DNA from: Eubacteriales bacterium
GTDB lineage: Bacteria > Bacillota > Clostridia > Lachnospirales > Lachnospiraceae
Reading direction: 5' to 3'
Assembly: GCA_030524545.1 (NCBI GenBank)
Contig: JAUNGM010000009.1
Span: forward strand, 62,001 to 126,000
DNA length: 64,000 bases
Position 1 is the first letter of the stretch; each line of letters begins with the position of its first letter. The notes beneath the pieces are model-generated. The model was not told the DNA's origin, searched no databases, and was given only the letters and a program-made list of their open reading frames with translations. Below are positions 34,476-49,937 of this stretch, piece by piece. The translations under genes were made by a program, and so were the position numbers.

Positions 34476-34510
34476 AAGTCCATAGTAATCTTATACTGGA
34501 GGATGGATTC

Positions 34511-36106
34511 ATGAAAAATTTTTTGCATAAAACCGCAGCGCTTGTCTGCTGCTGTACGGCGGTTCTTTCTATGACCGCCTGCAGCGGCACGCAGGCGCTT
34601 AAAAGTGCTTCTGAGGAAAATACGGTTTCCCCTGTCACACTGGACTGGTATGTGAATTTTTCCTGGTTTAAGACAGGCTGGGGAGAGAATCTCGTATCTA
34701 AAAAGATCACGGAAGAAACCGGCATATCGATTAATTTTGTGACACCCGCAGGAAATGAAACGGAGAAGCTCAATTCCATGATCTCTTCCGATACGCTGCC
34801 TGACCTGGTGACACTGGGCTGGTGGGAACCGCAGGCACAGGAGATGGTTGAAAAAGGAATCGTTTATGCCTTAAATGAGCTGGCGGATGAATATGATCCG
34901 TATTTTTATCAGGTGATTGACCAGGACTGTGCGGACTGGTACACAAAGGAAGACGGCAATCTCTACTGCTATCCCAATTCTTCCTATACACCAAAAGATT
35001 ATGAGGAACATGAAAACATTGGCTCCAATCAGAATTTCCTTGTGCGCAAGGACATTTACGAAGCGATCGGCAGCCCTGATATGACGACACCGGAGGGATT
35101 CTGTGCAGCAGTAAAGGCAGCTGCGGAGCAGTTTCCGGAGGTGGACGGCTATCCTCTGATTCCTATAGGTGCAGATGAATTTAAACCGGAGGGATGCAAT
35201 TCCTTTGATAAATATCTTCAGAATTTTCTTGCTGTTCCCAATGAAAAGGACGGGAAGATTTATGACCGTTATACGGACAGTGAATATCTTGCATGGCTGA
35301 AGGTGTTCCGCGGGCTGGCCCGGGAGGGATATCTGGCAGACGATATTTTTATTGACAGAAGGACGCAGATTGAGGAAAAGATTGCCCAGGGAAGGTATTT
35401 CTGTATGCTTTATCAGGGACAGGACATGCTGAACCAGCAGAAGATTCTCTATCAGAATGATCCGGACAGTATCTATATAGCGGTAGAAGGACCAAGAAAC
35501 TCTTCCGGAGATGATCCGATCCTTCCGGGGACAGGCATCAACGGCTGGACTGTAACCTTTATTTCCAGGAATTGTGAGAATCCGGACAGGGCGATTTCCT
35601 TTCTCTCCTATCTTATCAGCGAGCATGGACAGAAGCTGGTCTATCTTGGGGTAGAAGGAGAAATGTACGATATGGTGGACGGCAAACCTGTGATCCGGCC
35701 GGAGGTACAGGCCGTACTGGATACGGACAGGGATGAGTATGACAGGAAATACGGAGGGGATGACACTTACTGGATGATGCAGGATAATGTGATGCAGGCA
35801 CAGTGGGGCAGCGGACTTTCCGCTCAGGAACGGCAGATCAAGGAATGGTCGTATCCTTATACAGTTTACGCGGGGCAGTATGAGATCAATCTGGAAGCTG
35901 ACACGGAGGAAGCCAATATTTATACGAAAGTGGAACAGGAATGGGGAAGCACCCTGCCAAGGCTGCTTCTGGCAGAATCCGAAGAGGAATTTGATGAGAT
36001 TCTGGAGGAATTTATCAGGAAGCGTGATTCTTACGGCTATGATAAGGTACTGGAAGCACAGAGCGAACAAATGAATCTGCAGAAAGAGCGGCTGGGTTTG
36101 AAATGA
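34511..36106 (+). CDS. Extracellular solute-binding lipoprotein
   Basis: A 531-residue binding protein of the LplA-like family-1 group. The signal peptide ends in a lipobox (LSMTAC, Cys at about residue 24), so it is anchored to the outer face of the membrane. It is about 90 residues longer than the other binding protein at 31240. Its gene sits directly before a YesM/YesN-type two-component pair, a common arrangement in which such a lipoprotein either feeds the importer or presents ligand to the sensor kinase. GGAGGAT precedes ATG 34511. Confidence 0.88.
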   Translation: MKNFLHKTAALVCCCTAVLSMTACSGTQALKSASEENTVSPVTLDWYVNFSWFKTGWGENLVSKKITEETGISINFVTPAGNETEKLNSMISSDTLPDLVTLGWWEPQAQEMVEKGIVYALNELADEYDPYFYQVIDQDCADWYTKEDGNLYCYPNSSYTPKDYEEHENIGSNQNFLVRKDIYEAIGSPDMTTPEGFCAAVKAAAEQFPEVDGYPLIPIGADEFKPEGCNSFDKYLQNFLAVPNEKDGKIYDRYTDSEYLAWLKVFRGLAREGYLADDIFIDRRTQIEEKIAQGRYFCMLYQGQDMLNQQKILYQNDPDSIYIAVEGPRNSSGDDPILPGTGINGWTVTFISRNCENPDRAISFLSYLISEHGQKLVYLGVEGEMYDMVDGKPVIRPEVQAVLDTDRDEYDRKYGGDDTYWMMQDNVMQAQWGSGLSAQERQIKEWSYPYTVYAGQYEINLEADTEEANIYTKVEQEWGSTLPRLLLAESEEEFDEILEEFIRKRDSYGYDKVLEAQSEQMNLQKERLGLK

Positions 36107-36122
36107 GAGGGGTGGACATGAG

Positions 36123-37922
36123 ATGAAGTGGTTTATCAATCAGAAACTGAAAGTGAAGTTTACACTTGTGATCGGTCTGATCGTGTTCATTCCCATTGTG
36201 ATCATCTATTCCATGCAGTTTGGAAATATGGAAAAAACCAGAGTGGATCAGCTGAAAGGAGCTGTGGAGGATTCTCTGGCGGAGACTTACAGTGAGATTC
36301 AGAAGACAGTGGATCTCTGCAACATGTCCACGCAGATGTTTCTGAATAACCAGAACCTGAATGATTTTCTCTCAGGACTGAAAAAGGGGGAGGATTTTGA
36401 AACGGAGGAAATTGTTTCCTTTTATCAGAATGACATTGCCATGCTGGAAAAACTGGTAAACAGCAATCCTTACCTGTATAGAATCCGTGTGTATGCGGAA
36501 AATGATGATTTTCTTGAGATGATGCCCATTTTGTTCCGCCATCAGCGAATGGAGGCTTTTCCATGGGCAGATTCCTATGTTTCCGGTCAGTGGCAGTTTG
36601 ACTATGATGATCATGCTCTGGAGGGTGTCTCTGCCCGCAGTATGGAGCATATCATGTCGCTGGTTACGACCTTTGCAGATTATGAGCTTGGAGAAACGGG
36701 AGTTTTGGAGGTTGCCGTGGATATGACGCAGATCTTTCCTCAGCTTTTTGCGGAAGAGGAGAATCAGTGGGGCTGCTTTGTGGCAGAGGACGGAATCGTA
36801 TATTCCGGCAGCAACAGGGAAGGCAGGTGGAACGAACTGGAGGAAGAAATCCTCTCCGAAGCTTTTTCCAAAGAAGAAGCAGGGGAAGTCTGCAGGAGGG
36901 CAAAGGTCGGGGATGAACCGGTGGTCATCGCAGCCATTCCGGTAAAGGAGCTTTCCGGTCAGCTTGTGTATCTTGTCAGCATAAAAGATGAGCTGAGAAA
37001 GATTTCTGAGCAGAGAGACCGGTTTCTGGTCATTCTGACAGTGATCTTTGTTTTAGCGGTCCTTGTGATCAACTGGGTGGTAAAAAAACTTCTGAAAGGT
37101 TTTTACGACCTGATGGAGATCATCCGTCATGTACAGGAAGGTGACCTGGATGTGCGGGTGTCTGCAACAGGAAATGATGAGATCGGGGAACTGGGCGGAC
37201 AGATCAATAAAATGCTGGACCGCATCCGCACTTTGATCGAAGAAAACGTCAATCGGGAGCGTCTGATGAAAAACTCGGAGATCCGGGCCCTGCAGAATCA
37301 GATCAATGCCCATTTTATTTATAATGTGCTGGAATCCATCAAAATGATGGCGGAAATTGATGAGGAATATGCAATCTCAGATGCGGTGACTTCTCTGGGA
37401 AGGCTTCTCCGCTACAGTATGCGGTGGGTTTCCCAGGAGGTGACGGTGCGCCAGGAAATCCAGTATGTACAGGATTATCTGGAACTGATGAACCTGCGCT
37501 ATGATTATGAGATTATTTTGTCCCTGAAGATATCAGACCTCGTATATATGCAGAAAATCCCAAAGATGTCCCTTCAGCCTATCGTGGAAAATGCAATCTG
37601 CCATGGGATTGAGGAGCTGGCGGAAGATGCAAGCATTTATATCAAGGCTGTGGAATACAAGGACTATTTTGAAATCGAGATTACTGATTCAGGCAGGGGG
37701 ATGACACAGGAACAGGTGAGGACTCTGGAAGAAAAAATAGCAGGAAAGATGGAAATCAGCGGAGGTTCCGGGAATGGCATTGGTCTGAAGAACGTACAGG
37801 ACAGAATTCATGTAGCTTTTGGCGAGCGATATGGAATCCGCGTGGCTTCCAAAGAGGGATGTTATACAAAGGTGATCGTAAAGGTTCCGATTACTCAAAG
37901 AGAGGAAAGTGTAGAAGGATGA
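36123..37922 (+). CDS. Sensor histidine kinase, YesM/LytS-type
   Basis: A 599-residue membrane kinase. Order: a first transmembrane helix (about 10-32), a large extracellular sensor domain (about 33-300), a second helix (about 302-322), a HAMP domain (VQEGDLDVRVSATGNDEIGELGGQINKML), then a HisKA_7TM/LytS-type phosphoacceptor region with H397 (NAHFIYNVLESIKMM) and a HATPase domain (PIVENAICHGIEE; GSGNGIGLKNVQDRI). It should phosphorylate the overlapping response regulator when an extracellular sugar or its binding protein is sensed. Sixteen bases separate it from the lipoprotein gene. Confidence 0.93.
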   Translation: MKWFINQKLKVKFTLVIGLIVFIPIVIIYSMQFGNMEKTRVDQLKGAVEDSLAETYSEIQKTVDLCNMSTQMFLNNQNLNDFLSGLKKGEDFETEEIVSFYQNDIAMLEKLVNSNPYLYRIRVYAENDDFLEMMPILFRHQRMEAFPWADSYVSGQWQFDYDDHALEGVSARSMEHIMSLVTTFADYELGETGVLEVAVDMTQIFPQLFAEEENQWGCFVAEDGIVYSGSNREGRWNELEEEILSEAFSKEEAGEVCRRAKVGDEPVVIAAIPVKELSGQLVYLVSIKDELRKISEQRDRFLVILTVIFVLAVLVINWVVKKLLKGFYDLMEIIRHVQEGDLDVRVSATGNDEIGELGGQINKMLDRIRTLIEENVNRERLMKNSEIRALQNQINAHFIYNVLESIKMMAEIDEEYAISDAVTSLGRLLRYSMRWVSQEVTVRQEIQYVQDYLELMNLRYDYEIILSLKISDLVYMQKIPKMSLQPIVENAICHGIEELAEDASIYIKAVEYKDYFEIEITDSGRGMTQEQVRTLEEKIAGKMEISGGSGNGIGLKNVQDRIHVAFGERYGIRVASKEGCYTKVIVKVPITQREESVEG

Positions 37923-39367
37923 AAAGTCTGTTAGTGGTTGAAGATGAAAAAATGATCCGTCAGGGGATTGTGACTATGATCAGGCGTTCTCCTGTCATGG
38001 TGGAAGAGATCCTGGAATGCCGGAACGGAGAGGAAGCATTGGAAATTCTGCATTCCAGACAGATTGATGTAATGTTTACGGATATACGTATGCCGAAGAT
38101 GGATGGAATCGCACTGATCGGCCATCTGGAGAGTCTTCCGAATCCGCCGAAGACGATCGTAGTCAGCGGTTATGATGATTTTAGCTATGCTGTAGAGGCC
38201 ATGCGGGGAGGGGTTCTGGATTATCTTCTGAAGCCCATTGAACGGGAAAAGCTGTATGAACTGCTGGAAAAGCTGGAAACAGAGCTGAAAGCAGACGAAC
38301 AAAAGCATAAGAGAGAGCTGGAGATTGGCAGAAAGGAGCTGCGTTATCTTCTTCTGAATCCTCAGGTACCCCAGGAAGAACTGGCAGAAATGGAGCAGCG
38401 TTTTTTCTCTGAGAAATACCGGGTGTGCATTTGCAGTGATCTGCCGGAAATAGAAAACAGCGGATCCGTACAACTGTGCGGGCTTGACGGACAGACGGTG
38501 TTTCTTGTAAAAGAAGGCGGTCTGGAGGAGCTGACAGAGAGGATTCTGGCAGGCCACTGCCTTGGAATCAGCCGGGCATATCAGGGAGTACGTCTGCTGT
38601 GGGAGGCATATGGTGAGGCTCTGGCAGCCAGAAAGCGTGCATTTGTCACAGGAAAGCATGCGGTTTTCTATGAAAATCCGGCAGTGAACGATGAAAAAGA
38701 GCAGGAAGAGATCCCGGATACGTTTCCGGAGCAATTTGTTCACCTGTTTGGTACGGAAAAAATACAGACGGGAATGAACCGGCTGGAAAATTACTATTTT
38801 ATGGCAAAACACGGAAGTGTGGATGAAGAACGGATTCTGGATGTCACGAGAGAAATCCTTGATAAGATCCTTACCACCTATAAAAACGTCATTGAGCTGG
38901 ATATGGATGGATATCTTGGACTGAAGCAGCCGCTGGCTTTTGAGAGTGCGGCAGGCTTCATGGAAAGATTTAAAGACTGGGCATACAGGACAAACCAGCG
39001 GCTTACGGAAGAGTTTGAGGATTACAGGAATAAAGGAAAGATCAGCCAGGCAGTTGCCTATATACATGAGAATTATGATAAGGAGCTGAATATGGCTGTT
39101 GTTTCGAATCATATTTCCATGAACTATTCCCTGTTTTCCCTGAGCTTTAAGCAGTATACGGGGATGAATTTTGTCAATTACCTGAAGATGATCCGTATCC
39201 GGGAGGCTAAGCGGCTTCTGGAGGAGACGGATGAGAAGATCATTGACATCAGCCAGAAGGTCGGTTATGAAAATGAGAAACATTTTATGAAGACCTTCAA
39301 AAGCGTCTGCGGCGTTTCACCGTCGGAATACCGCAGAAATGTCCAGATGGGACGGCCAAAAGAATAG
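37919..39367 (+). CDS. Response regulator with AraC-type output, YesN-type
   Basis: A 482-residue regulator. Residues 1-120 are a receiver domain (acidic pocket VVEDE, phosphoacceptor D55 in MFTDIRMPKMDG, Lys in LLKPIERE). A middle region of unknown fold leads to a C-terminal AraC double helix-turn-helix (about 385-478; MAVVSNHISMNYSLFSLSFKQYTG and IIDISQKVGYENEKHFMKTFKS). The ATG overlaps the kinase stop by four bases, so the pair is translationally coupled. The likely target is the upstream phosphorylase/importer operon; no binding site could be defined. Confidence 0.93.
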   Translation: MKSLLVVEDEKMIRQGIVTMIRRSPVMVEEILECRNGEEALEILHSRQIDVMFTDIRMPKMDGIALIGHLESLPNPPKTIVVSGYDDFSYAVEAMRGGVLDYLLKPIEREKLYELLEKLETELKADEQKHKRELEIGRKELRYLLLNPQVPQEELAEMEQRFFSEKYRVCICSDLPEIENSGSVQLCGLDGQTVFLVKEGGLEELTERILAGHCLGISRAYQGVRLLWEAYGEALAARKRAFVTGKHAVFYENPAVNDEKEQEEIPDTFPEQFVHLFGTEKIQTGMNRLENYYFMAKHGSVDEERILDVTREILDKILTTYKNVIELDMDGYLGLKQPLAFESAAGFMERFKDWAYRTNQRLTEEFEDYRNKGKISQAVAYIHENYDKELNMAVVSNHISMNYSLFSLSFKQYTGMNFVNYLKMIRIREAKRLLEETDEKIIDISQKVGYENEKHFMKTFKSVCGVSPSEYRRNVQMGRPKE

Positions 39368-39389
39368 TACCGTCTGGATAGCGTCAAGA

Positions 39390-39428
39390 AGAGATTTGGC
39401 ATTAAACCTTAGTGCCAAATCTCTTTTT
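39390..39428 (+). terminator. Terminator of the two-component operon, overlaps PTS operator
   Basis: A perfect 12-bp stem (39390-39401 with 39413-39424) is followed by five T (39424-39428). Its arms contain the ATTTGGC/GCCAAAT palindrome, also found at 44849, so the same DNA appears to end one transcript and bind the activator of the next. Confidence 0.75.
39394..39420. promoter_or_regulatory. Operator 1 of the PTS regulon
   Basis: ATTTGGC-N13-GCCAAAT, 27 bp, ending 15 bases before the -35 box of the EIICB promoter. The same palindrome with identical spacing occurs at 44849-44875. The likely binder is the MtlR-like activator at 42652; known MtlR sites also contain TTG-CA/TG-CAA half sites. 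Confidence 0.75.
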
Positions 39429-39435
39429 CTATTAG

Positions 39436-39465
39436 TTGAAAAATGGCACCGGCGGCGTTTATAAT
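39436..39465 (+). promoter_or_regulatory. Promoter of the first PTS EIICB gene
   Basis: TTGAAA (39436-39441), an 18-base spacer, TATAAT (39460-39465). The long spacer suits an activator-dependent promoter, and operator 1 is centred about 65 bases before the expected start. Confidence 0.78.
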
Positions 39466-39567
39466 AAGCTCATGAAACAGAGATTGATTGGCCAGTCACT
39501 CCTCTAATGAAAACGAAAAATGAAAAACGAGCAATCGTAAAAAAGAAAAAGAAGAGGTGTGAAATCA

Positions 39568-40959
39568 ATGAAAGAAAAAGTTCAGCTTTTCGGCAGATTT
39601 TTGAGCGGAATGGTAATGCCAAATATCGGTGCCTTTATCGCGTGGGGCCTGATCACAGCGTTGTTTTTGGAAACAGGCTGGATCCCCAATGAAACATTCG
39701 CAAAATTAATTTCCCCAATGTCCCAGATGCTTCTGCCGCTTTTGATCGCTTATACAGGCGGTAATGTAGTGGCAGGACAGCGCGGCGGCGTTATCGGTGC
39801 TATTGCCACCATGGGTGTTATCGTAGGATCTGATGTGCCGATGTTCATCGGAGCAATGATCGTAGGTCCTCTGTCCGCATGGGTTATCAAGAAATTTGAC
39901 AAATTTATGGAGAATAAAGTAAAAGCCGGATTTGAAATGCTGGTAAATAACTTCTCCCTTGGTATCATCGGTGCGATCCTCTGCCTCCTGGCAATGAAAG
40001 GAATCACCCCGCTGGTAGGCGTACTGAACAGTGCAATGGAAGCTGGTGTAGGCTTCTTCGTAAACCACGGCTTACTGCCGCTGACAAGTGTTTTCATTGA
40101 ACCTGCAAAGGTTCTGTTCCTGAATAATGCTATCAACCACGGAATCTTATCTCCGATGGGAATCAAACAGGTAGAAGAACTTGGAAAATCCGTATTCTTC
40201 TTACTGGAAGCAAACCCTGGCCCTGGCCTTGGTGTATTGCTGGCTTACTGTATCGCAGGAAAAGGAAGTGCAAAGAGTTCTGCTCCCGGTGCTGTGATCA
40301 TCCACTTCCTGGGCGGTATTCATGAAATTTACTTCCCATACATCCTGATGAACCCGTTGCTGATCCTTTCCGTAATCGCAGGCGGCGCAAGCGGTGTGTT
40401 TGTTTTCAACCTGATGGGTGTCGGCCTGACAGCTCCGGCTTCTCCAGGAAGTATTCTTGCGATCATGATGATGGCAGAACGTCACAGCTACCTTGGAATT
40501 ATCCTCGGTGTACTTGTAGCAACGGTTGTTTCTTTTGTAATTTCTCTTCCGATCCTGAAATTCATGAGCAAGGATGCAAGCCTTGAGGAAGCACAGCAGA
40601 AGAAAGATGCTATGAAGAGCCAGGCAAAGGGCATCAAAACGGCAGCCCCGGCAGCAGCTCCGGCAAAAATGGGCAAAGTAAGCAAGATCGCATTTGCATG
40701 TGATGCAGGTATGGGTTCCAGTGCCATGGGCGCTACCGTACTGAAAAAGAAGATCGCGGCAGCCGGAATCGAAGGTATTGAGGTCATCCATACTCCGGTT
40801 TCTTCCATCCCGCAGGATGTACAGATCGTTGTAACACATCAGGAGCTTGGAGAGCGCGCAGCACACAGCAATCCGAATGCGAAGCTGGTGCTGATTACAA
40901 ACTTCCTGGCAGCTCCTGAGTATGAGACTCTGGTAGAAGAACTGAAAGCAAATAACTAA
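39568..40959 (+). CDS. PTS mannitol-type EIICB component
   Basis: A 463-residue membrane transporter and phosphotransferase. Residues 1-340 form the IIC channel domain with mannitol-family signatures (GRFLSGMVMPNIGAFIAWG; GGIHEIYFPY). A short Ala/Pro linker leads to the IIB domain with the phosphocysteine C378 (FACDAGMGSSAMGA). It takes up and phosphorylates a hexitol, using phosphate from EIIA at 44984. No fused IIA domain is present, as in Gram-positive MtlA. ATG 39568 follows AAGAGGTG. A paralogue lies 236 bases downstream. Confidence 0.92.
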   Translation: MKEKVQLFGRFLSGMVMPNIGAFIAWGLITALFLETGWIPNETFAKLISPMSQMLLPLLIAYTGGNVVAGQRGGVIGAIATMGVIVGSDVPMFIGAMIVGPLSAWVIKKFDKFMENKVKAGFEMLVNNFSLGIIGAILCLLAMKGITPLVGVLNSAMEAGVGFFVNHGLLPLTSVFIEPAKVLFLNNAINHGILSPMGIKQVEELGKSVFFLLEANPGPGLGVLLAYCIAGKGSAKSSAPGAVIIHFLGGIHEIYFPYILMNPLLILSVIAGGASGVFVFNLMGVGLTAPASPGSILAIMMMAERHSYLGIILGVLVATVVSFVISLPILKFMSKDASLEEAQQKKDAMKSQAKGIKTAAPAAAPAKMGKVSKIAFACDAGMGSSAMGATVLKKKIAAAGIEGIEVIHTPVSSIPQDVQIVVTHQELGERAAHSNPNAKLVLITNFLAAPEYETLVEELKANN

Positions 40960-41022
40960 AAATAAAATATAAGATATCGGGTACCTAAATGGTGGACAAT
41001 TTTTTAAAAAATAATACCGGTG

Positions 41023-41051
41023 TTGCGGTAACGTTTGGGGAATGATATGAT
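41023..41051 (+). promoter_or_regulatory. Promoter of second EIICB gene
   Basis: TTGCGG (41023-41028), 17 bases, TATGAT (41046-41051) with an extended TGA before it. A TACCG/CGGTA inverted repeat (41015-41019, 41026-41030) overlaps the -35 box. The ATTTGGC palindrome of the other two PTS promoters is absent. Confidence 0.6.
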
Positions 41052-41056
41052 AAAAG

Positions 41057-41121
41057 AGGCACGCAGAGTGATTCTGATGTCCGGTCTGAAGGACGGGCAC
41101 TGAGGAATCAGCCGCGTGCCT
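41057..41121 (+). other. Structured 5' leader of second EIICB gene
   Basis: Three nested stems: AGGCACGC/GCGTGCCT (41057-41064, 41114-41121), TGATTC/GAATCA (41069-41074, 41105-41110), and GTCC/GGAC (41079-41082, 41091-41094). The fold would start at the predicted transcription start. No T run follows, so it is not a simple terminator. A leader RNA with a regulatory or stabilising role is possible. Confidence 0.45.
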
Positions 41122-41195
41122 TGTGGTGTCATAAACAGGATGGAATTGTGTGGAAGAAAGCACTGATAAAAATAAAATACAGGCGGATAATGATT

Positions 41196-42647
41196 ATGAA
41201 TAAGCGTTTACATGATATCGGAAAATTTTACAGCAGCATCTTTATGGGAAATATCGGCCTGTTTCTTTTTATCGGCCTGCTTTCCGTAATTTTTCAGGAA
41301 CAGGGATGGTTTCCAAATGAAAAGCTTTATAACATCTCTCAGCTTGTCTATGAAGTGGTCCTGCCCACCTGCATCGGATATGTGGGCGGAGAAAAAATCG
41401 CCGGACGCAGCGGAGGAATCCTTGCAGTCCTTATGGTGGCAGGCGTTCTGACTGCGGATGTTCATGTGGGGATTTTGGCAGCGATGATCGCAGGTCCTGT
41501 GGGCGGAGCGGTATGGAAGTACGCGGGAAGCCGTATGAAGGAACGTGTCGGCTCCAGCCTTCAGATGCTGGCCGGTAATCTGCTGATCGGAATACTGGGA
41601 AGCCTTCTCGCAGTCCTGGGGTATTATATTCTGGAACCGGCAGTTACCTGGTGGGCAGAGGGGATCTCGGGATGTCTGAAAGCATTGATCGAGCATCGTC
41701 TGCTTCTCCTTGCCAATGTTTTTATTGAACCGATGAAGGTGTTTTTCCTGAATAATATTGTCAACCACGGAATGCTGGTTCCCCTGGGAATGAACCAGAT
41801 TCAGGAGGGCGGAAAATCCGTGCTGTTTCTTCTGGAATCCAATCCCGGCCCCGGATTTGGAATGCTCCTGGCGCTTTTTCTGACGCAACGGGAACGGAGA
41901 GGAGAATACGGAACGGCCCTGTTTGCCCAGGGAGCAGGAGGAATTCATGAAGTTTATTTTCCCTATGTTCTTGCAAATCTGTGGCTGCTGCTGCCTCTGA
42001 TCGCGGGAGGAGCAGCCGGAACCCTTTGTTTTGAACTGCTGCATGTGGGAGTGACGGCTCCGGTGTCTCCGGGAAGCATCATTACGATCCTTATTATGGC
42101 AGGCAAAGAGAACCTGCTTACGGCAGCAGGGGGAATTGCTGTATCGGCTGCCGTGTCATTTGCCGGAAGTCTGCTTGTACTTGGGTTTCGGAGACAGCGA
42201 AGAGAAAACAGTAAACCAATGAAAGAATCAACGGAAAAACTGACAGAAGAACCGATAGAAGAATCAACGGAAAAACCAACGGAAAAACCGACAGAAGAAT
42301 TAACAGAAGAGCTGATAGAAGAACCAATAGTAGAACCGATAAAGGAGGAAACGCGGATGCCATTAAAAAATATTGGATTTGTCTGTGATGCAGGAGTAGG
42401 CTCCAGTGCAATGGGAGCTGCGCTCTTTCGCAGGAAACTTGCACAGAATGGGATTCAGGGTGTTGCGGTACAGGCATATGCTTCGGATCAGATACCGAAG
42501 AGCCTGGATCTGATCGTCTGTCAGAAGGATTTTCTCCGTCTCCTTCCGGATGGAACAAAAGAAATGGAAATTTTTGCGGTTGACAGTCTCATGGGCGGAG
42601 AAGCATTTGACAAATTGATCAATACCATAAAGGAAAGAAACAGGTGA
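41196..42647 (+). CDS. Second PTS mannitol-type EIICB, repeat linker
   Basis: A 483-residue paralogue of the upstream EIICB. The IIC domain (about 1-340) keeps the family landmarks, including GGIHEVYFPY and FIEPMKVFFLNN. A Glu/Thr-rich linker (residues 342-385) built of eleven 4-residue repeats separates it from the IIB domain, whose phosphocysteine is C397 (FVCDAGVGSSAMGA). The start is uncertain: ATG 41196 has AGGCGG nine bases upstream, while ATG 41190 is too close to that box. An internal ATG at 42357 has an excellent ribosome-binding site. Substrate may differ from the first copy. Confidence 0.88.
   Translation: MNKRLHDIGKFYSSIFMGNIGLFLFIGLLSVIFQEQGWFPNEKLYNISQLVYEVVLPTCIGYVGGEKIAGRSGGILAVLMVAGVLTADVHVGILAAMIAGPVGGAVWKYAGSRMKERVGSSLQMLAGNLLIGILGSLLAVLGYYILEPAVTWWAEGISGCLKALIEHRLLLLANVFIEPMKVFFLNNIVNHGMLVPLGMNQIQEGGKSVLFLLESNPGPGFGMLLALFLTQRERRGEYGTALFAQGAGGIHEVYFPYVLANLWLLLPLIAGGAAGTLCFELLHVGVTAPVSPGSIITILIMAGKENLLTAAGGIAVSAAVSFAGSLLVLGFRRQRRENSKPMKESTEKLTEEPIEESTEKPTEKPTEELTEELIEEPIVEPIKEETRMPLKNIGFVCDAGVGSSAMGAALFRRKLAQNGIQGVAVQAYASDQIPKSLDLIVCQKDFLRLLPDGTKEMEIFAVDSLMGGEAFDKLINTIKERNR
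42219..42350 (+). repeat. Eleven 12-bp coding repeats in EIICB linker
   Basis: Eleven consecutive imperfect 12-base units (consensus ACGGAAGAACCG) encode tetrapeptides of the type T-E-E/K-P, I-E-E-P and T-E-E-L. The stretch forms a charged, probably extended linker between the IIC and IIB domains. Such repeats can change in number by slippage, altering linker length without breaking the frame. Confidence 0.9.
42341..42359 (+). promoter_or_regulatory. Internal ribosome-binding site and ATG for a free EIIB
   Basis: AAAGGAGG (42341-42348) lies eight bases before an in-frame ATG (42357-42359) at the first residues of the IIB domain (MPLKNIGFVCDAG). The spacing is ideal, so ribosomes could make a separate EIIB of 96 residues in addition to the full EIICB. 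The box also encodes the last linker repeat, so the match could be chance. Confidence 0.5.
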
Positions 42648-42651
42648 AACA

Positions 42652-44745
42652 ATGGAATTTACACCAAGGACGAAACAGATTCTGAGTATTATGCTGAAGG
42701 AAAACCAGACAATGTCGGTACAAAATCTGGCAGAGCAGGTGGGGGTCAGCAAGCGGACCGTTCAGCGGGAGCTGGAGTATATGGGCAGCAGCCTGAAGTC
42801 ATATGATATCACCTTTATGTCAAAGACCGGGGTGGGAATCTGGCTGGAGGGAAGCCAGGAAGAAAAAGACCGGCTTTTTTCGGATATTACCAATGGCGAT
42901 TCCTATGATGTGAGCAACCGGGAAGACCGGCGGAAACGCCTGATTCTGGAAATCCTTAAGGATAAAGGCCTGAAAAAGCTGTTTTATTACAGCAGCAAGT
43001 TTAAGGTCAGCGAGGCTACGGTGAGCGGAGACCTGGAGGCGATTGAAGAGTGGCTGAACCGCTATGACCTGTCGGTTGTCCGCAAACCGGGAAGCGGAAT
43101 TGCCGTGGAGGGGAGCGAAGGAAGCTACAGGAGAGCAATTCGTGCGTTTATCAATGAGAATATAGATACCAAGATGCTCCATGATGCCTACGAAAACGAG
43201 GAGGATCATTCGGGCGTCTGCGATGGCCTGCAGCAGAGTAATATCGGCCAGATCCTGAATGATGATATTCTGAAGAGAGTCGTAAACTGTATTATCGGAA
43301 TGAACGATGCCAGGGTCATGTCACTGACGGAAAATTCTTATATCGGTCTGGTCATCCATATTACCATTGCCATTAACAGGATCTTGAAAAACGAGATAAT
43401 GGAGGCGGATGCCGGATGGAATCATGAGATGCCAAGGGATGAGGAATACATCCTGGCAGAAAGGATCGTGCAGGAGCTGGAAGAGGAATTCGAAATTGAA
43501 ATTCCCCCTGTGGAGGTTTCCTATATATGCCTGCATATTAAAGGAGCAAAACATGAGAAGATCCAGTGGAACGGACAGAAAACCCTGGAGCTGGAAAACA
43601 GGGAGCTGCAGCAGCTTGTAAATGAGATGATCGATACTTTTGATGAACAGAATGGGTTTCTCCTGAAGCAGGATGAGGAATTTATCCAGGGTCTTCTGGC
43701 TCATTTACAGCCGACGTTTATCCGGATCCTTCATGGGATGCAGATCAGCAATCCTGTTCTGGAGGACATTAAAAAGGACTATCACGATACCTTTGTGAAA
43801 TGTAAAAAAGTAGCAGAGGTACTCGGCAGCTGGATCGGAAAAGAGGTTCCTGAGGCAGAAATCGGTTTTCTGACCGTGCATTTCGGCGCTGCCATGGTGC
43901 GCCTGGAGGGGAAGAGCGAGAACATCCGTCAGGTACATATGGGAGTGGTCTGCTCCAGCGGTATCGGGATTTCCAGGCTTATGTCCACCAAGCTGGAAAA
44001 AGCGTTTAAAGACAGGGTAGTGATCACAACATACGGCAAGAAAGATATTACCCCGTACATTGCCGGAAAGGTGGATTTCTTTGTTTCCAGCATTCCGATG
44101 GATCCGATGGATACTCCTGCCGTTTTTGTGAATCCTCTGCTGAATGAAGAGGATATGGAGCAGGTGAGAAAAATGGTCTACAGCTATGAGCGGATGCCGC
44201 AGAAGCATAAAGAAGAAAATGAGTTCACCGTAGAGCTGGAAGAAATCAACCTGGTAGCAGCACAGGTGAATGCGGTCATTAAATATATGGAGTTTTTCAA
44301 AGTGGACAATTATATCACTTTTGAGGAGCTTCTGATCGCCATCGGAGAGAAGCTGTCCCCTTATAGAGACAGAGGCGAGATGATTCAGGAGGATATCCGG
44401 AAGAGAGAAAAGATTGCATCGCAGATTTTTGCGGAATTCGGCTTTGCACTCCTTCATACCAGGACGAAGGGTGTTGTACGTCCAAGCTTTACCGTATGCA
44501 TGACCAAGGATCTGCAGCCATTTCAGGATTCTTATTTTAAAGGAATCCAGGTGGTATTCATCATGCTCCTGCCTGTAGATGAAAATCTGAAGATCAACAG
44601 CGAGATTCTGGGGTATATCAGCAGTATTCTGATTGAGGATTATCAGTTTATGGATACGGTCCTTACCGGAGATAAGGAGAAGATCCGCAGTGCGCTGTCC
44701 GTACATCTGAAGAAGTTTTTTAGTAAGTATATTTCCCGTATCTGA
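42652..44745 (+). CDS. PRD-containing activator, MtlR-like
   Basis: A 697-residue transcription activator of the MtlR/LicR group. Order: two helix-turn-helix domains (about 1-65, VQNLAEQVGVSKRTVQRELE, and 85-150), two PTS regulation domains (about 185-410, with conserved histidines in LVIHITIAI and FLTVHFGAAM), an EIIB-like domain with C434 (VVCSSGIGISRL), and an EIIA-like domain with H602 (ALLHTRTKG). Phosphorylation by PTS proteins at these sites tunes activity to sugar flux. It begins four bases after the second EIICB gene. Its likely binding sites are the two identical palindromes at 39394 and 44849. Confidence 0.93.
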   Translation: MEFTPRTKQILSIMLKENQTMSVQNLAEQVGVSKRTVQRELEYMGSSLKSYDITFMSKTGVGIWLEGSQEEKDRLFSDITNGDSYDVSNREDRRKRLILEILKDKGLKKLFYYSSKFKVSEATVSGDLEAIEEWLNRYDLSVVRKPGSGIAVEGSEGSYRRAIRAFINENIDTKMLHDAYENEEDHSGVCDGLQQSNIGQILNDDILKRVVNCIIGMNDARVMSLTENSYIGLVIHITIAINRILKNEIMEADAGWNHEMPRDEEYILAERIVQELEEEFEIEIPPVEVSYICLHIKGAKHEKIQWNGQKTLELENRELQQLVNEMIDTFDEQNGFLLKQDEEFIQGLLAHLQPTFIRILHGMQISNPVLEDIKKDYHDTFVKCKKVAEVLGSWIGKEVPEAEIGFLTVHFGAAMVRLEGKSENIRQVHMGVVCSSGIGISRLMSTKLEKAFKDRVVITTYGKKDITPYIAGKVDFFVSSIPMDPMDTPAVFVNPLLNEEDMEQVRKMVYSYERMPQKHKEENEFTVELEEINLVAAQVNAVIKYMEFFKVDNYITFEELLIAIGEKLSPYRDRGEMIQEDIRKREKIASQIFAEFGFALLHTRTKGVVRPSFTVCMTKDLQPFQDSYFKGIQVVFIMLLPVDENLKINSEILGYISSILIEDYQFMDTVLTGDKEKIRSALSVHLKKFFSKYISRI

Positions 44746-44789
44746 AACCGGGAGAGCATAAAATGCTGATAATTAAAGGAATGATTATG

Positions 44790-44832
44790 AGAAAGAACTG
44801 CCGTCTTCGGAGGGAAGTTCTTTCTTTTTTTT
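44790..44832 (+). terminator. Intrinsic terminator after the PRD regulator
   Basis: A 10-bp perfect stem (44790-44799 with 44816-44825) with a short inner stem, followed by a run of eight T (44825-44832). It separates the EIICB/regulator unit from the EIIA operon. Confidence 0.9.
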
Positions 44833-44848
44833 AGACTTGTCAAATGGA

Positions 44849-44875
44849 ATTTGGCACTATCGGATGACGCCAAAT
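44849..44875. promoter_or_regulatory. Operator 2 of the PTS regulon
   Basis: ATTTGGC-N13-GCCAAAT, the same 27-bp palindrome as at 39394-39420, again ending exactly 15 bases before the -35 box. The thirteen central bases differ, so the matched arms and spacing are what is conserved. Confidence 0.78.
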
Positions 44876-44890
44876 CCCAGCTTCTTTGAG

Positions 44891-44920
44891 TTGAAATTTA
44901 TATATAAAAGGCACTATAAT
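44891..44920 (+). promoter_or_regulatory. Promoter of the EIIA-fruK-dehydrogenase-HPr operon
   Basis: TTGAAA (44891-44896), 18 bases, TATAAT (44915-44920). Boxes and spacer length equal those of the first EIICB promoter. Confidence 0.8.
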
Positions 44921-44983
44921 AGGCTCATAAAGAACAACGGACAACACAAAAAAATATGAAAATAGTGATAAGGAGGATTTCAA

Positions 44984-45454
44984 ATGTTTTTCAGAAAGAA
45001 AAAAGAAGAACCGAAAGCGGAACCAGTAAAGAAGGAGCTGTTATATCGCGAAAACATTAAGGTAGGATGCAAGGCAGACACACAGGAAAATGTCATCCGT
45101 GAGGTAGGCCAGATGCTGGTAGACAGCGGATATGTGGATCAGCCGTATGTTGAGGCAATGTTGGAAAGAGAAAAATCTTTCTCCACCTTTATGGGAAACG
45201 GCCTTGCACTTCCGCATGGCGTAGAATCTGCAAAAAAGGAGATCAAGGCATCCGGAATTGCTGTTATGGTTTTCCCGGAAGGAACAGAGTGGGGTGCTGA
45301 AAAAGTGAATATTGTGATAGGCATCGCAGGCGTTGGTGAAGAACATCTTCAGATTCTTGCCGTAATCGCAGATAAGATGCTGGCACCGGAAGCAACAGAA
45401 GAGCTGATCAAGGGTGATGTTGATACAGTATACAGAATGCTTTCCGGAAACTAA
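44984..45454 (+). CDS. PTS mannitol-type EIIA component
   Basis: A 156-residue cytoplasmic phosphocarrier of the mannitol/fructose EIIA family. The phosphohistidine is H78 in GNGLALPHGVESAK. A short Lys/Glu-rich N-terminal tail (FFRKKKEEPKAEP) precedes the domain. It should pass phosphate from HPr to the IIB domains of one or both EIICB proteins at 39568 and 41196. It is the first gene of an operon with fruK, a dehydrogenase and an HPr. AAGGAGG precedes ATG 44984. Confidence 0.94.
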   Translation: MFFRKKKEEPKAEPVKKELLYRENIKVGCKADTQENVIREVGQMLVDSGYVDQPYVEAMLEREKSFSTFMGNGLALPHGVESAKKEIKASGIAVMVFPEGTEWGAEKVNIVIGIAGVGEEHLQILAVIADKMLAPEATEELIKGDVDTVYRMLSGN

Positions 45455-45591
45455 ACAGTTAAGGACGTGAAGCAGAGATAAGAGAAGCTGAGATAGAAGC
45501 TTAAATAAAACCGGTGTTAAAATCGGAGAGAAGATGACCTGCGATGCAGGAAAATTGTAGAACACCTGCACAGCAGGGAAAGGAGTAAGGC

Positions 45592-46521
45592 ATGATTATT
45601 ACAGTGACTATGAACCCGGCGATTGATAAGACCGTAGAAATCGATGCACTGGTACAGGGAGGTCTGAACCGCATTAAAAAAGTAGAATATGATGCAGGAG
45701 GAAAGGGAATCAACGTTTCCAAGACCATCTGCGAACTTGGCGGACATACCATTGCTACCGGCTTTCTGGGAGGTAACAACGGACGTACCATTGCCAGCGT
45801 GCTGAAAGAAAAAGGCATCGAAAGTGATTTTATCTGGGTTGACGGAGAAACAAGAACCAACACCAAGGTTTTTGAAGAAAACGGAGCTTTGACAGAGTTA
45901 AATGAGCCTGGCCCGACCATCACGGAAGATAAGATTGAAGAATTGATGAAGAAACTTCTGGGCTATGCAGGAATTGATTCTCTGTTTGTCCTGTCAGGCA
46001 GCATTCCGGCAGGGGTTCCCAAAGATACTTATGCCAGAATCATCCGTGCAGTCCATGAAAAAGGATCTAAAGTCCTGCTGGATGCAGACGGCGAACTGTT
46101 CCGCCAGGGACTGGAAGCCGGACCGGATATCATCAAACCGAACCGTGTAGAACTGGAAGAATATGCAGATATGGATTACAGAGCATCGGAAGAGGAGCTT
46201 CTGAAGATCGCGAAGAAATTTACGGAAAAGGGTGTAGGAACAATTGCCGTATCCATGGGCAAAAGCGGTGCTATGTTCGTCCTGAAAGAAACTACGGCAA
46301 AATGCCCGGCACTGTCCGTAAAAGCACACTCTACCGTAGGCGCAGGAGATGCGATGGTAGCAGCACTTGCCTACTCCTGGGATGAAAAGCTTCCGGAAGA
46401 GGAAATGATCCGTCTCAGCATGGCTGTTTCCGCGGGGGCAGTAACCACCATCGGAACCAAGCCGCCTGCAAAGGAACTGGTAGATACATTGAAGGAACAG
46501 GTCATCATTGAGAAGATGTAA
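45592..46521 (+). CDS. fruK: 1-Phosphofructokinase
   Basis: A 309-residue PfkB-family kinase of the FruK/LacC group. Signatures: TMNPAIDKTVEID at the N terminus, the substrate motif GGKGINVSKTI, SGSIPAGVP, and the C-terminal STVGAGDAMVAALAY with the catalytic Asp. FruK makes fructose 1,6-bisphosphate from fructose 1-phosphate; a tagatose-6-phosphate kinase role is the main alternative. In a hexitol PTS operon it implies that the dehydrogenase next door yields a ketose 1-phosphate. A 137-base gap separates it from EIIA. Confidence 0.88.
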   Translation: MIITVTMNPAIDKTVEIDALVQGGLNRIKKVEYDAGGKGINVSKTICELGGHTIATGFLGGNNGRTIASVLKEKGIESDFIWVDGETRTNTKVFEENGALTELNEPGPTITEDKIEELMKKLLGYAGIDSLFVLSGSIPAGVPKDTYARIIRAVHEKGSKVLLDADGELFRQGLEAGPDIIKPNRVELEEYADMDYRASEEELLKIAKKFTEKGVGTIAVSMGKSGAMFVLKETTAKCPALSVKAHSTVGAGDAMVAALAYSWDEKLPEEEMIRLSMAVSAGAVTTIGTKPPAKELVDTLKEQVIIEKM

Positions 46522-46581
46522 TCATTGAAAAACCAGATGTCAGATATAGAGATCAGAGATTATGAAAAGGAGATTGAAATT

Positions 46582-47847
46582 ATGAAAACGAAAGCAGTCA
46601 GACTGTATGGAGAAAGAGATTTAAGACTGGAAGAATTTGAATTACCGGCAATCAAAGACGATGAGATCCTTGTAAAAGTTATGAGCGACAGTATCTGCAT
46701 GTCCACCTACAAACTGGTAGAGCAGGGAAAGAGACATAAAAGAGCACCGCAGAATATTGATACCAACCCTGTTATCGTAGGACATGAATTTGCCGGTGTG
46801 ATCGTAGAAGTCGGTGAAAAATGGAAAGATCAGTTTAAGCCTGGCATGAAATTCGCACAGCAGCCTGCACTGAACTACAAAGGAAGCCTTGCTTCTCCCG
46901 GATATTCCTATGAGTTCTTCGGCGGTGCATGCACTTACTGCATCATTCCTCACGAAGTAATGGAGCTTGGATGCCTGATGCCGTACGACGGCGACAGCTT
47001 CTTTGAAGCATCCCTCGGCGAGCCGATGAGCTGCTGTATCGGCGGTTATCACGGAAACTACCACACAAACAAGAGAAACCATGACCTTGCAACCGGAACA
47101 AAACCGGACGGAAACATTTTAGTAGCAGGCGGATGCGGACCGATGGGACTTGGTATGATCACCTACGGTATCCAGATCGAAAACCGTCCGAAACGCATTG
47201 TAGTTACCGATATTGATGATGCAAAGCTGGCACGTGCGGCAGAAGTGATCTCTCCGGAGAAAGCGGCAGCCAACGGCGTAGAATTGCTGTATGTCAATAC
47301 TGCAAAAATGGCAGATCCTGTAGAAGAACTGAGAGCGATCACAGACGGCAAAGGCTATGATGATGTTTTTGTAATGCTTCCGATCCGGCCTGTTGTAGAA
47401 ATGTGCGATAAGCTTCTGGCATTTGACGGCTGCATGAACTTCTTTGCAGGCCCGACAGACAACCAGTTTACTTCTGAACTGAATATGTACAATGTACATT
47501 ACATCAGCACACATATCGTAGGAACCACCGGAGGAAACAACGACGACCTGATCGAGGCCAACACTCTTGCAGCAGCAGGAAAGATTGAGCCGGCCGTTAT
47601 GGTAACACATGTCGGCGGTATCGACAGTATCGCAGATGCTACTATGAACCTGCCGAAAATCCCCGGCGGAAAGAAACTGACCTATACTCAGTTTGATATG
47701 CCTCTGACTGCAATCACAGATTTCGAGGAGCTTGGAAAGACAGACCCGTTATTCAAGAAACTGGATGAAGTATGCAAGAAGAACAGAGGCCTGTGGAGCG
47801 CAGAAGCAGAGAAGATTCTGTTTGAACATTTTGGTGTAGAAGCTTAA
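46582..47847 (+). CDS. Zinc alcohol dehydrogenase, sorbose-1-phosphate reductase-like
   Basis: A 421-residue medium-chain zinc dehydrogenase. The catalytic zinc site is suggested by SICMSTYK and GHEFAGV; the nucleotide-binding fold by VAGGCGPMGLGMITYG and a following VVTDIDD acidic strand end. Overall it resembles SorE, which interconverts L-sorbose 1-phosphate and glucitol 6-phosphate by acting on the carbon next to the phosphate-bearing carbon. Here it probably oxidises the hexitol phosphate made by the PTS. ATG 46582 follows AAGGAG; an upstream in-frame TTG at 46525 is less likely. Confidence 0.8.
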   Translation: MKTKAVRLYGERDLRLEEFELPAIKDDEILVKVMSDSICMSTYKLVEQGKRHKRAPQNIDTNPVIVGHEFAGVIVEVGEKWKDQFKPGMKFAQQPALNYKGSLASPGYSYEFFGGACTYCIIPHEVMELGCLMPYDGDSFFEASLGEPMSCCIGGYHGNYHTNKRNHDLATGTKPDGNILVAGGCGPMGLGMITYGIQIENRPKRIVVTDIDDAKLARAAEVISPEKAAANGVELLYVNTAKMADPVEELRAITDGKGYDDVFVMLPIRPVVEMCDKLLAFDGCMNFFAGPTDNQFTSELNMYNVHYISTHIVGTTGGNNDDLIEANTLAAAGKIEPAVMVTHVGGIDSIADATMNLPKIPGGKKLTYTQFDMPLTAITDFEELGKTDPLFKKLDEVCKKNRGLWSAEAEKILFEHFGVEA

Positions 47848-47877
47848 TTATATTGTTGAATAAGGAGGAAAAATCAT

Positions 47878-48141
47878 ATGGTATCCAAAAAAATCGTAGT
47901 AAAAAATGAATCCGGCCTTCATGCAAGACCGGCAGGTATTCTGGCAAAAGAAGCAGGCAAATGCAGATCCAATGTTCTTATTAAAGTCGGTGACAGAACA
48001 ATTGTAGCAAAAAGTATCCTGAACATTATGGCAGCAGCGATCAAATGCGGCACAGAGATCGAGCTTTGCTGCGACGGCGAAAATGAAGAAACAGATCTTG
48101 CGAAACTTGCAGAGCTGATTGAAAGCGGCCTTGGCGAATAA
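47878..48141 (+). CDS. HPr-family phosphocarrier protein
   Basis: An 87-residue HPr. Both phosphorylation sites are intact: H15 in ESGLHARPAG for transfer from enzyme I to EIIA, and S46 in AKSILNIMAA for regulatory phosphorylation by HPr kinase. The usual GVMSL stretch after S46 is changed to LNIMAAAIKCG, so regulatory contacts may differ. It is the last gene of the EIIA operon, which suggests an HPr dedicated to this PTS in addition to the housekeeping one. AAGGAGG lies upstream. Confidence 0.92.
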   Translation: MVSKKIVVKNESGLHARPAGILAKEAGKCRSNVLIKVGDRTIVAKSILNIMAAAIKCGTEIELCCDGENEETDLAKLAELIESGLGE

Positions 48142-48180
48142 TTCGTTTGAAATACATCCCCCCTATTTTCATTTACTATA

Positions 48181-48223
48181 GAAAAGTACCCGGCAGGACT
48201 TAAGCGACTGCCGGGTGCTTTTC
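48181..48223 (+). terminator. Intrinsic terminator after the PTS operon
   Basis: A 16-bp stem with one G-T pair (48181-48196 with 48208-48223); the descending arm ends CTTTTC. The preceding TACTATAGAAAA also occurs in the hairpin element at 23741. Confidence 0.75.
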
Positions 48224-48282
48224 GTTGAGAGACACACAGGAGTGATATGGAAAGGAGAAGGATTGTGCGGCTGCAGGCCCGA

Positions 48283-48311
48283 TTGTTTTTTTGGAATGCT
48301 CATGTTATGAT
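48283..48311 (+). promoter_or_regulatory. Promoter of the purine nucleoside phosphorylase gene
   Basis: TTGTTT (48283-48288), 17 bases, TATGAT (48306-48311), with an extended -10 TGT directly before it. Confidence 0.5.
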
Positions 48312-48343
48312 AAGGACAAAAGCAGAGATAAGGAGGAAGCAAT

Positions 48344-49198
48344 ATGAATCCTGTATATGAAAAATTGATGCGCTGTTACAGGAGTGTCAGAGAAAAAATA
48401 GATTTCAGGCCGCAGGTTGCTCTGGTTCTTGGCTCAGGACTTGGCGGCTTTGGAGAAGAGATCAGGGTTGTTCAGACGCTGGAGTACAGCGAGATTGAAG
48501 GATTTCCTGTATCTACGGTTCCGGGACATGCGGGCAGGTTTTTATTTGGATATGTGGGCGGTGTTCCTGTGGCAGCTATGCAGGGGCGTGTCCATTATTA
48601 CGAAGGATATTCCATGGATATGGTGGTCCTTCCGGTACGGCTGATGAAAATGATGGGTGCGGAGATTCTGTTTCTCACCAATGCGGCGGGCGGGGTGAAT
48701 TACGATTTTTGCCCGGGTGATCTGATGCTGATCAAAGACCAGATTGCTTCGTTTGTTCCTTCCCCTTTGATTGGCATGAATATAGAAGAACTGGGGCCGA
48801 GATTCTGTGATATGAGTGAGGTTTATGAGAAAAGCCTGCAAAGGATCCTTCGGGAAACGTCGAAAGATCTGCATATCCCTCTTCAGGAAGGCGTTTATCT
48901 TCAGTTCAGCGGCCCGGCGTATGAGACACCTGCGGAAGTGCGGATGGCAAGGGTCCTGGGTGCGGATGCCGTTGGTATGAGCACTGCCTGCGAGGCAGTG
49001 GCGGCGAATCATATGGGAATGAAAATCTGCGGGATTTCCTGCATCACGAATAAGGCATGCGGAATGTCGGATCAGCCCCTTTCCCATGAGGAGGTTCAGG
49101 AGACTGCGGACAGGATCGGGGCCCCTTTTCAGAAACTCGTAAAAGAGTCCATCATCAGGATGGGAAAAGTGCTGAACGGAGAGACGGCCGATGAATGA
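48344..49198 (+). CDS. punA: Purine-nucleoside phosphorylase
   Basis: A 284-residue trimeric-type phosphorylase that splits inosine or guanosine with phosphate. Signatures are VLGSGLGGFGE (phosphate loop), TVPGHAGRFLFG, MQGRVHYYEGYS, LTNAAGGVN, and GPAYETPAEVRMARVLGADAVGMST with the base-binding Glu region. Length is typical of the PNP/MTAP family type I enzymes. Its 3' end overlaps the next gene by eight bases, so it shares a transcript with trmO. AAGGAGG precedes ATG 48344. Confidence 0.95.
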   Translation: MNPVYEKLMRCYRSVREKIDFRPQVALVLGSGLGGFGEEIRVVQTLEYSEIEGFPVSTVPGHAGRFLFGYVGGVPVAAMQGRVHYYEGYSMDMVVLPVRLMKMMGAEILFLTNAAGGVNYDFCPGDLMLIKDQIASFVPSPLIGMNIEELGPRFCDMSEVYEKSLQRILRETSKDLHIPLQEGVYLQFSGPAYETPAEVRMARVLGADAVGMSTACEAVAANHMGMKICGISCITNKACGMSDQPLSHEEVQETADRIGAPFQKLVKESIIRMGKVLNGETADE

Positions 49199-49937
49199 TA
49201 AAGAGATTGTGGAAAATACCACAACACCTGAGCTGCAGAAAGAAACACAGGGGCTGACCATGAAAGTGATAGCCCGGATTCATACGGACTTTCCTACGAA
49301 ATTCGGGATTCCTCATCAGAGCAGCCGGATTGAGTCACTGAAGGCGCAGATCGTGTTTGAGCCGGAATACCGTGTGCCGGAAGCTGTCCGCGGCCTGGAG
49401 GAATATACGTATCTGTGGCTGATCTGGGAGTTTTCGGAAAATGTCAGGGATACATGGTCACCGACTGTGCGTCCGCCAAAGCTTGGGGGAAATATCCGCA
49501 AAGGGGTATTTGCCACCCGTTCCCCCTTCCGGCCGAATGCCCTGGGGCTGTCATCCGTGAAGCTGGAGAGGATTGAAATGGACAGAGCACTTGGCCCTGT
49601 CCTTCATGTAACGGGCGCAGACATGATGGATGGAACGCCTATTTATGATATCAAACCATATCTGCCATATGTGGACAGCCATCCGGATGCCTCGGGAGGA
49701 TTTACGGATCGGATTTCCTATTCCGGGCTAACGGTAGTATTTCCGGATAAATGGCTGGAAATGATTCCGACAGAAAGCAGGAAAGCCCTGACTGAGGTAC
49801 TGGCGGGTGATCCCCGGCCGGGCTACCAGAAAGATCCCGGACGGATTTACGGACTGGCATTTGGGGGAAAGGATGTACATTTCCGGGTGGAAGGAGATGT
49901 GCTGACGGTCTGCGGCGTTACGGATTTTTCCGGATAA
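49191..49937 (+). CDS. trmO: tRNA (t6A37) N6-methyltransferase TrmO
   Basis: A 248-residue member of the TrmO (TsaA/YaeB/VirR-like) family, which methylates threonylcarbamoyladenosine at position 37 of some tRNAs using S-adenosylmethionine. The conserved beta-barrel motifs are IHTDFPTKFGIPHQS, YLWLIWEFSEN, VRPPKLGGNIRKGVFATRSPFRPNALGLSSVKL (split here across residues 80-115), and MMDGTPIYDIKPYLPYVDS. A short, poorly conserved N-terminal extension of about 22 residues precedes MKVIARIHTD. It overlaps the phosphorylase gene. Confidence 0.9.
   Translation: MNDKEIVENTTTPELQKETQGLTMKVIARIHTDFPTKFGIPHQSSRIESLKAQIVFEPEYRVPEAVRGLEEYTYLWLIWEFSENVRDTWSPTVRPPKLGGNIRKGVFATRSPFRPNALGLSSVKLERIEMDRALGPVLHVTGADMMDGTPIYDIKPYLPYVDSHPDASGGFTDRISYSGLTVVFPDKWLEMIPTESRKALTEVLAGDPRPGYQKDPGRIYGLAFGGKDVHFRVEGDVLTVCGVTDFSG

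Follow-up and report, generated by a model that had tools for sequence, protein, structure and literature searches.

We found that a 64,000-nucleotide stretch of DNA from a Eubacteriales bacterium of the Lachnospiraceae (GenBank assembly GCA_030524545.1, contig JAUNGM010000009.1, positions 62,001 to 126,000 of the forward strand; the whole stretch is called the window below) carries an operon of a mannitol-type phosphotransferase system (PTS), which contains a SorE/YggP-type zinc dehydrogenase, here designated DH, and a 1-phosphofructokinase, FruK, in place of the usual dehydrogenase MtlD. The operon very likely encodes a route from mannitol through mannitol 1-phosphate and fructose 1-phosphate to fructose 1,6-bisphosphate, and this is probably a variant of mannitol catabolism that employs a mannitol 1-phosphate 2-dehydrogenase together with FruK. 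An initial annotation of positions 44849..48141 had proposed the fructose 1-phosphate route, and the proposal gains support from the replacement of MtlD by DH at mtlA loci, the occurrence of FruK with DH, the repeated pairing of the two in the FruK tree, and the stereochemistry of SorE. The shared operators and an E. coli counterpart, YggP, are additions to that annotation.

The mannitol-type EIIA and EIICB, FruK, zinc dehydrogenase, and HPr listed in the initial annotation are all present, with the permeases, of which there are two, lying upstream of the annotated segment. EIIA, FruK, DH, and HPr are open frames in the same orientation; both permeases and an MtlR-type regulator lie directly upstream of EIIA, and were counted as parts of the same system. 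The genes are as follows, in window coordinates.

39559..40959, + strand, EIICB1, canonical mannitol permease MtlA (TIGR00851, 514.6 bits, cut-off 468.4; PRK15083, 680.9 bits, cut-off 589); probable start codon, ATG at 39568
41196..42647, + strand, EIICB2, MtlA-like but divergent permease carrying an EIIB domain of its own (TIGR00851, 269.2 bits, below cut-off; PTS_IIB, 31.6 bits, cut-off 23.6)
42652..44745, + strand, MtlR-type transcriptional activator (helix-turn-helix, two PRD, EIIA-2; EIIB-like part slightly below cut-off)
44984..45454, + strand, EIIA of the mannitol/fructose type (PTS_EIIA_2, 99.6 bits, cut-off 27)
45592..46521, + strand, FruK, 1-phosphofructokinase (TIGR03828, 329.5 bits, cut-off 292)
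46582..47847, + strand, DH, zinc dehydrogenase of the SorE/YggP type, proposed to act as a mannitol 1-phosphate 2-dehydrogenase that forms fructose 1-phosphate
47878..48141, + strand, HPr; His15 and Ser46 are present by manual count in the translation (PTS-HPr, 91.6 bits, cut-off 23)

This gene order was seen again in many lineages, indicating that the arrangement is not due to chance.

Dehydrogenases and kinases at mtlA loci

The absence of an MtlD-type dehydrogenase, which the initial annotation had noted, holds for the whole genome (completeness, 99.97%), in which no match to NF002652 was found at E ≤ 1e-40. The genome encodes two proteins with a Mannitol_dh domain (PF01232); one (620.5 bits; cut-off, 359) is a tagaturonate reductase, and the other reaches no cut-off, its best scores being 139.7 for DalD and 135.4 for fructuronate reductase. 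A survey of 294 genomes of the order, with neighbours scored within 8 kb, yielded 60 mtlA loci in 47 genomes. DH was located near mtlA at 42 loci (at most 6,010 bases away) and MtlD at 15 (at most 2,951 bases away), with both at none and neither at three. Two of the last three (L193 and L194) show DH-like pieces on reading, and the third (L195) is solitary. When counted by genome, DH was present in 32 of the 47 and MtlD in 15, with both in two (G074, at two separate loci, and G091) and neither in two, which gives a Fisher p of 7e-8, kinship being ignored. The distribution of DH is patchy, 41 of the 294 genomes having it. The DH of L194 is in two pieces (1045-1434), representing a frameshift or an assembly error.

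A quick EIIC tree, constructed with no bootstrap and after 12 pieces had been dropped, contained a 25-row set (support 99) that mixes 13 MtlD-linked and 12 DH-linked permeases, and grouped E. coli MtlA together with 57 DH-linked rows (support 83). The partner label must change at least twice on supported branches, and the MtlD-linked permeases appear in more than one place. Since these are scattered among DH-linked ones, we conclude that there is a single kind of permease whose dehydrogenase partner has changed. Judged from these gene neighbourhoods, DH substitutes for MtlD beside mtlA. EIICB2 forms a separate branch in this tree, as part of a long-branched group of EIICB2-like genes, and its substrate may differ from that of EIICB1.

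The assignment of the kinase as a 1-phosphofructokinase was borne out, since FruK passes TIGR03828 and fails both models of the tagatose-6-phosphate kinase LacC (154.3 against 409.55 and 170.6 against 469). We assembled 92 DH loci, comprising the best 80 of at least 594 stretches, a choice that favours the kin of the window, and 12 from relatives; a locus was regarded as permease-bearing when an Mtl-type permease lay within 7.5 kb on the same strand. There were 67 permease-bearing loci, and FruK was found at 56 of them; three more loci had FruK without a permease, and 22 had neither. FruK was found at none of the 15 MtlD loci, one of which (L191) is on a contig of only 5 kb, yet MtlR (14/15), HPr (11/15), and PtsI (10/15) were present there. 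The comparison of FruK at DH loci with that at MtlD loci gave a p of 8e-10, with kinship ignored. At one locus (L039, 8843-11064), a FruK and DH pair without a permease has neighbours that resemble ABC transporter parts by their first residues.

The FruK tree comprised 87 rows, three pieces (two of L038 and one of L067) having been dropped. Its fructose-linked label was checked with models for L137, L143, L144, and L155, and by eye for the rest; the EIIC part of L137, which is cut by the end of the locus, scored slightly below cut-off. The FruK of the window belongs to a 40-row set with 39 DH-linked members. Far from it, another group consists of FruKs beside fructose permeases, with DH-linked kinases nested at several places, and supported branches force at least six changes of the DH label. 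Nine of ten DH-linked kinases from both groups pass the 1-phosphofructokinase cut-off, and the tenth is short by 1.7 bits. If fructose 1-phosphate is the product of DH, kinases of that compound would be expected to pair with DH repeatedly, as they do here. The genome yielded no fructose-type EIIC over cut-off, the sole match being EIICB2 (32.9 bits; cut-off, 157.55), and thus no fructose PTS was found to feed FruK. The FruK of L038 is in two pieces (8882-9644), by a frameshift or an assembly error.

The DH family and the proposed route

The only domain matches of DH are ADH_N and ADH_zinc_N. An AlphaFold2 model of DH, based on 40 sequences, showed the medium-chain dehydrogenase fold with a pLDDT of 92.5. 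C39, H68, E69, and E147 do not vary across 40 sequences, and D210 is nearly invariant; by analogy with the superfamily, the former four residues would be the ligands of the catalytic zinc, and D210 presumably points to NAD+. DH is therefore, by its fold and catalytic zinc-site residues, a member of the zinc medium-chain dehydrogenase superfamily. A fold search with the model returned ordinary zinc medium-chain dehydrogenases and nothing substrate-specific, with no SorE- or YggP-named entry among the matches listed, and a sequence search of the PDB gave no close solved relative, the best match being an ordinary alcohol dehydrogenase (1.2e-12). DH is not named by any NCBIfam model, that of scyllo-inosose dehydrogenase being the highest-scoring (69.1 bits; cut-off, 450). 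GatD, the galactitol-1-phosphate 5-dehydrogenase, is likewise a zinc medium-chain dehydrogenase with a hexitol phosphate as its substrate, but belongs to a different subfamily, DH scoring 25.6 bits on PRK10309 (cut-off, 550). Nor does DH match the Mannitol_dh domain or any PRK02318 model, as would an MtlD.

The dehydrogenase had been described as SorE-like, which is right as to the family, with 44% identity to Citrobacter SorE over 414 aligned columns; its closest relative from a characterised genome, however, is E. coli YggP, with 53% identity. In a quick DH tree, constructed with no bootstrap, a 74-row set (SH-aLRT 97) contains YggP and all 70 permease- or FruK-linked loci, that of the window included, except L065, which was left out as truncated. 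Citrobacter SorE and one L. plantarum protein, which is a SorE by context only, are split from the other 94 rows (SH-aLRT 100), these being the only two SorE-type rows. At 12 loci of Oscillospiraceae and other Clostridia (L043, L099, L101, L103, L107, L108, L111, L118, L120, L123, L125, and L131), a member of the DH family lies near an SDR dehydrogenase, without an Mtl-type permease or FruK, and probably has another function.

According to excerpts of PMC12817954, SorE converts L-sorbose 1-phosphate to sorbitol 6-phosphate, and hence works at the carbon beside the phosphate. We applied the SorE stereochemistry, by Fischer bookkeeping, to eight hexitols with the phosphate at either end. D-Mannitol was the sole hexitol of the eight to give D-fructose 1-phosphate, with sorbitol giving L-sorbose 1-phosphate and galactitol giving L-tagatose 1-phosphate. 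The only difference between mannitol 1-phosphate, which is the same as the 6-phosphate, and sorbitol 6-phosphate is at C2, a position distant from the phosphate, and a SorE-like enzyme would therefore need little change to accept the former. The DH family presumably retains the SorE stereochemistry. The initial annotation had left the substrate as mannitol or a related hexitol; the mannitol part of this is supported, and other hexitols are less likely.

In the proposed route, EI and HPr would phosphorylate EIIA and EIICB1, and D-mannitol would be imported as mannitol 1-phosphate. DH, with NAD+ and the catalytic zinc, would oxidise this compound at the carbon beside the phosphate, the end of the molecule opposite to that on which MtlD acts, to produce D-fructose 1-phosphate. 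FruK would then convert fructose 1-phosphate to fructose 1,6-bisphosphate, the substrate of aldolase, by-passing fructose 6-phosphate and 6-phosphofructokinase, with MtlR controlling this mannitol PTS. 6-Phosphofructokinase is a usual control point, and fructose 1-phosphate is a known signal in some bacteria. In the open-access literature searched, we recognised no paper linking mannitol 1-phosphate to fructose 1-phosphate via one dehydrogenase.

Alternative explanations

The position of DH in MtlD's place at mtlA loci would also be accounted for if DH were a zinc-dependent replacement that still yields fructose 6-phosphate, with FruK as an accessory kinase. This is very unlikely, as it leaves FruK unexplained, both in its frequency (56/67 permease-bearing DH loci against 0/15 MtlD loci) and in the pairing of two FruK groups with DH. 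A sorbitol route has also been considered, in which glucitol 6-phosphate is imported, DH acts as SorE in reverse to produce L-sorbose 1-phosphate, and the kinase produces L-sorbose 1,6-bisphosphate; it would agree with the 44% identity of DH to SorE and with the reaction of the latter, as given in excerpts of PMC12817954. We regard this route as very unlikely, since the permease is MtlA by model. SorE, of the same protein family and acting at the carbon beside the phosphate, lies on the opposite side of a supported branch from DH. Both SorE-type loci examined combine a mannose-family PTS with an SDR dehydrogenase (SorD-type in the sor operon of Citrobacter), whereas this sor set, present in Citrobacter, is lacking in the operon, whose seven genes (two MtlA-type EIICBs, the PRD regulator, EIIA-2, FruK, DH, and HPr) are of other families. 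Furthermore, the product of the sorbitol route would be L-configured at C5, and aldolase would thus give L-glyceraldehyde 3-phosphate.

The divergence of EIICB2, and the presence of a locus in a Caproiciproducens species whose name, the only ground for its inferred use, refers to galactitol (L070), would suit another hexitol, such as galactitol or altritol, as the true substrate, via tagatose or psicose 1-phosphate and maybe with EIICB2 as its permease. We consider this very unlikely, because EIICB1 is a canonical MtlA with kin at 65 of the 92 DH loci, as compared with nine for EIICB2-like genes, FruK fails the tagatose-6-phosphate kinase models, and galactitol under SorE stereochemistry would give the L-form of tagatose 1-phosphate. 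Dehydrogenases are reversible in general, and DH might reduce fructose 1-phosphate to mannitol 1-phosphate as an electron sink; however, such a role is highly improbable in a genome with no fructose-type permease over cut-off and in an operon with its own MtlA and MtlR-type activator.

Several observations weigh against the route from mannitol to fructose 1-phosphate. FruK is not found nearby at 11 of the 67 permease-bearing DH loci (two on contigs shorter than 6 kb), nor adjoining yggP in E. coli, and in Roseburia porci (L064) no FruK was found in the genome at E ≤ 1e-60; for 10 of the 11 loci, a FruK over cut-off is present somewhere in the genome. Of the 22 loci that lack both a permease and FruK, 20 branch outside the permease-linked set, and the DH family thus does not have a single function. 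The genome of the window has a second kinase over the 1-phosphofructokinase cut-off in another cluster (L161, G000:C5:123648-124565), and the exact form of the operator palindrome described below is missing at 53 of the 67 permease-bearing loci. In addition, related genomes are not independent, so that the p-values given above overstate the case. The L161 cluster comprises a GatD-like dehydrogenase (323 bits, below cut-off), the FruK-like kinase, and an aldo-keto-reductase-like protein below cut-offs, and a similar layout is found in L158 of a relative.

Operators and comparison with known systems

Each half of the operon is preceded by a palindrome and a promoter-like site, as follows; the binding of MtlR is what we infer from the palindromes.

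39395..39419, no strand, putative MtlR-type operator, palindrome TTTGGCA-N11-TGCCAAA, before EIICB1
39436..39465, + strand, promoter-like site TTGAAA-18-TATAAT, 16 nt past the palindrome, 11 of 12 consensus letters
44850..44874, no strand, second putative MtlR-type operator, TTTGGCA-N11-CGCCAAA, before EIIA
44891..44920, + strand, promoter-like site TTGAAA-18-TATAAT, layout as at 39436

Promoter-like sites in the region are at chance level (12, against 13.2 in shuffles), and these two were credited because the palindrome, spacing, and letters are common to both. The 25-bp palindrome TTTGGCA-N11-(T/C)GCCAAA occurs at three places genome-wide, as compared with one match for a reversed control; the third place is ahead of ptsI on another contig (G000:C20:12703-14495; L170 6704-8502), outside the window, with an identical promoter layout. 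In some relatives (L033, L037, and L038), ptsI follows HPr within the operon, whereas here it is located elsewhere with the same control site. By its occurrence at these sites, the palindrome places mtlA, the EIIA-FruK-DH-HPr unit, and a ptsI gene in one predicted regulon. The genome has three EI genes over cut-off, and in two of these stop codons were flagged within the matching region. The exact 23-bp core was found upstream of mtlA or EIIA at 14 of the 67 permease-bearing DH loci, those of Treponema and Caproiciproducens among them, and two scrambled controls gave none.

The canonical mannitol operon of B. subtilis and E. coli (mtlA, mtlR, mtlF, mtlD) shares the MtlA permease, EIIA, and MtlR-type activator with the present one, but here an unrelated zinc dehydrogenase, usually with FruK, stands in MtlD's stead. 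The MtlR site of B. subtilis, as it appears in the primer lists of PMC3217849, has the end letters TTGnCA...TGnCAA. As far as those lists go, it is like the operators described here in its end letters and in its distance to the -35 box, but its core palindrome spans 20 bp, against 23 bp in the present operators. Conversion of fructose 1-phosphate to fructose 1,6-bisphosphate by FruK is also part of the fructose PTS route, but fructose 1-phosphate would here come from the oxidation of a hexitol phosphate and not from the uptake of fructose. In Haloarcula hispanica, according to excerpts of PMC11519228, mannitol is likewise degraded via fructose 1-phosphate and FruK; free mannitol is there oxidised to fructose, from which ketohexokinase makes fructose 1-phosphate, and, in contrast to the system described here, no PTS takes part in the excerpted pathway.

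In E. coli, the cluster order is cmtB-cmtA-yggP-yggF-fumE-yggC, and the annotation of YggP goes no further than putative dehydrogenase; CmtAB is listed as a mannitol PTS in an excerpt of PMC10305011. As in the window, an MtlA-type EIICB and an EIIA occur with a DH relative, which in E. coli follows them directly; it has 53% identity to DH and belongs to the same set of the DH tree. Unlike the operon of the window, the E. coli cluster has no FruK, PRD activator, HPr, or EI, and a fructose-bisphosphatase follows. Of 5426 complete E. coli genomes, 5337 cover at least 80% of the segment cmtB-cmtA-yggP-yggF. From its place in the DH tree, YggP is predicted to have the same activity as DH, a prediction that is less certain because no FruK is adjacent. 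In our estimate, the chances are about even that this is a second widespread bacterial mannitol pathway, found in Bacillota, in metagenome-assembled genomes of Spirochaetota, Planctomycetota, and Actinomycetota, and, via cmtB-cmtA-yggP, in nearly all E. coli, which would enter glycolysis as fructose 1-phosphate through a new mannitol 1-phosphate 2-dehydrogenase activity shared by YggP. If so, cmtB-cmtA-yggP, a core E. coli operon of unknown purpose, would gain a role, and the textbook rule that PTS mannitol is converted to fructose 6-phosphate via MtlD would fail for many clostridia, which MtlD-based annotation pipelines and metabolic models would score as mannitol-negative.

An Rfam scan of 38000-49500 gave no match at the gathering score, and thus no sign of a described riboswitch there, and no near DNA copy of 44984-48141 was found in a plasmid collection. 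The upstream neighbours at 29629-39367, as read by eye from the translations, resemble a glycosidase, parts of an ABC sugar transporter, and a two-component system, with no apparent relation to the mannitol operon.

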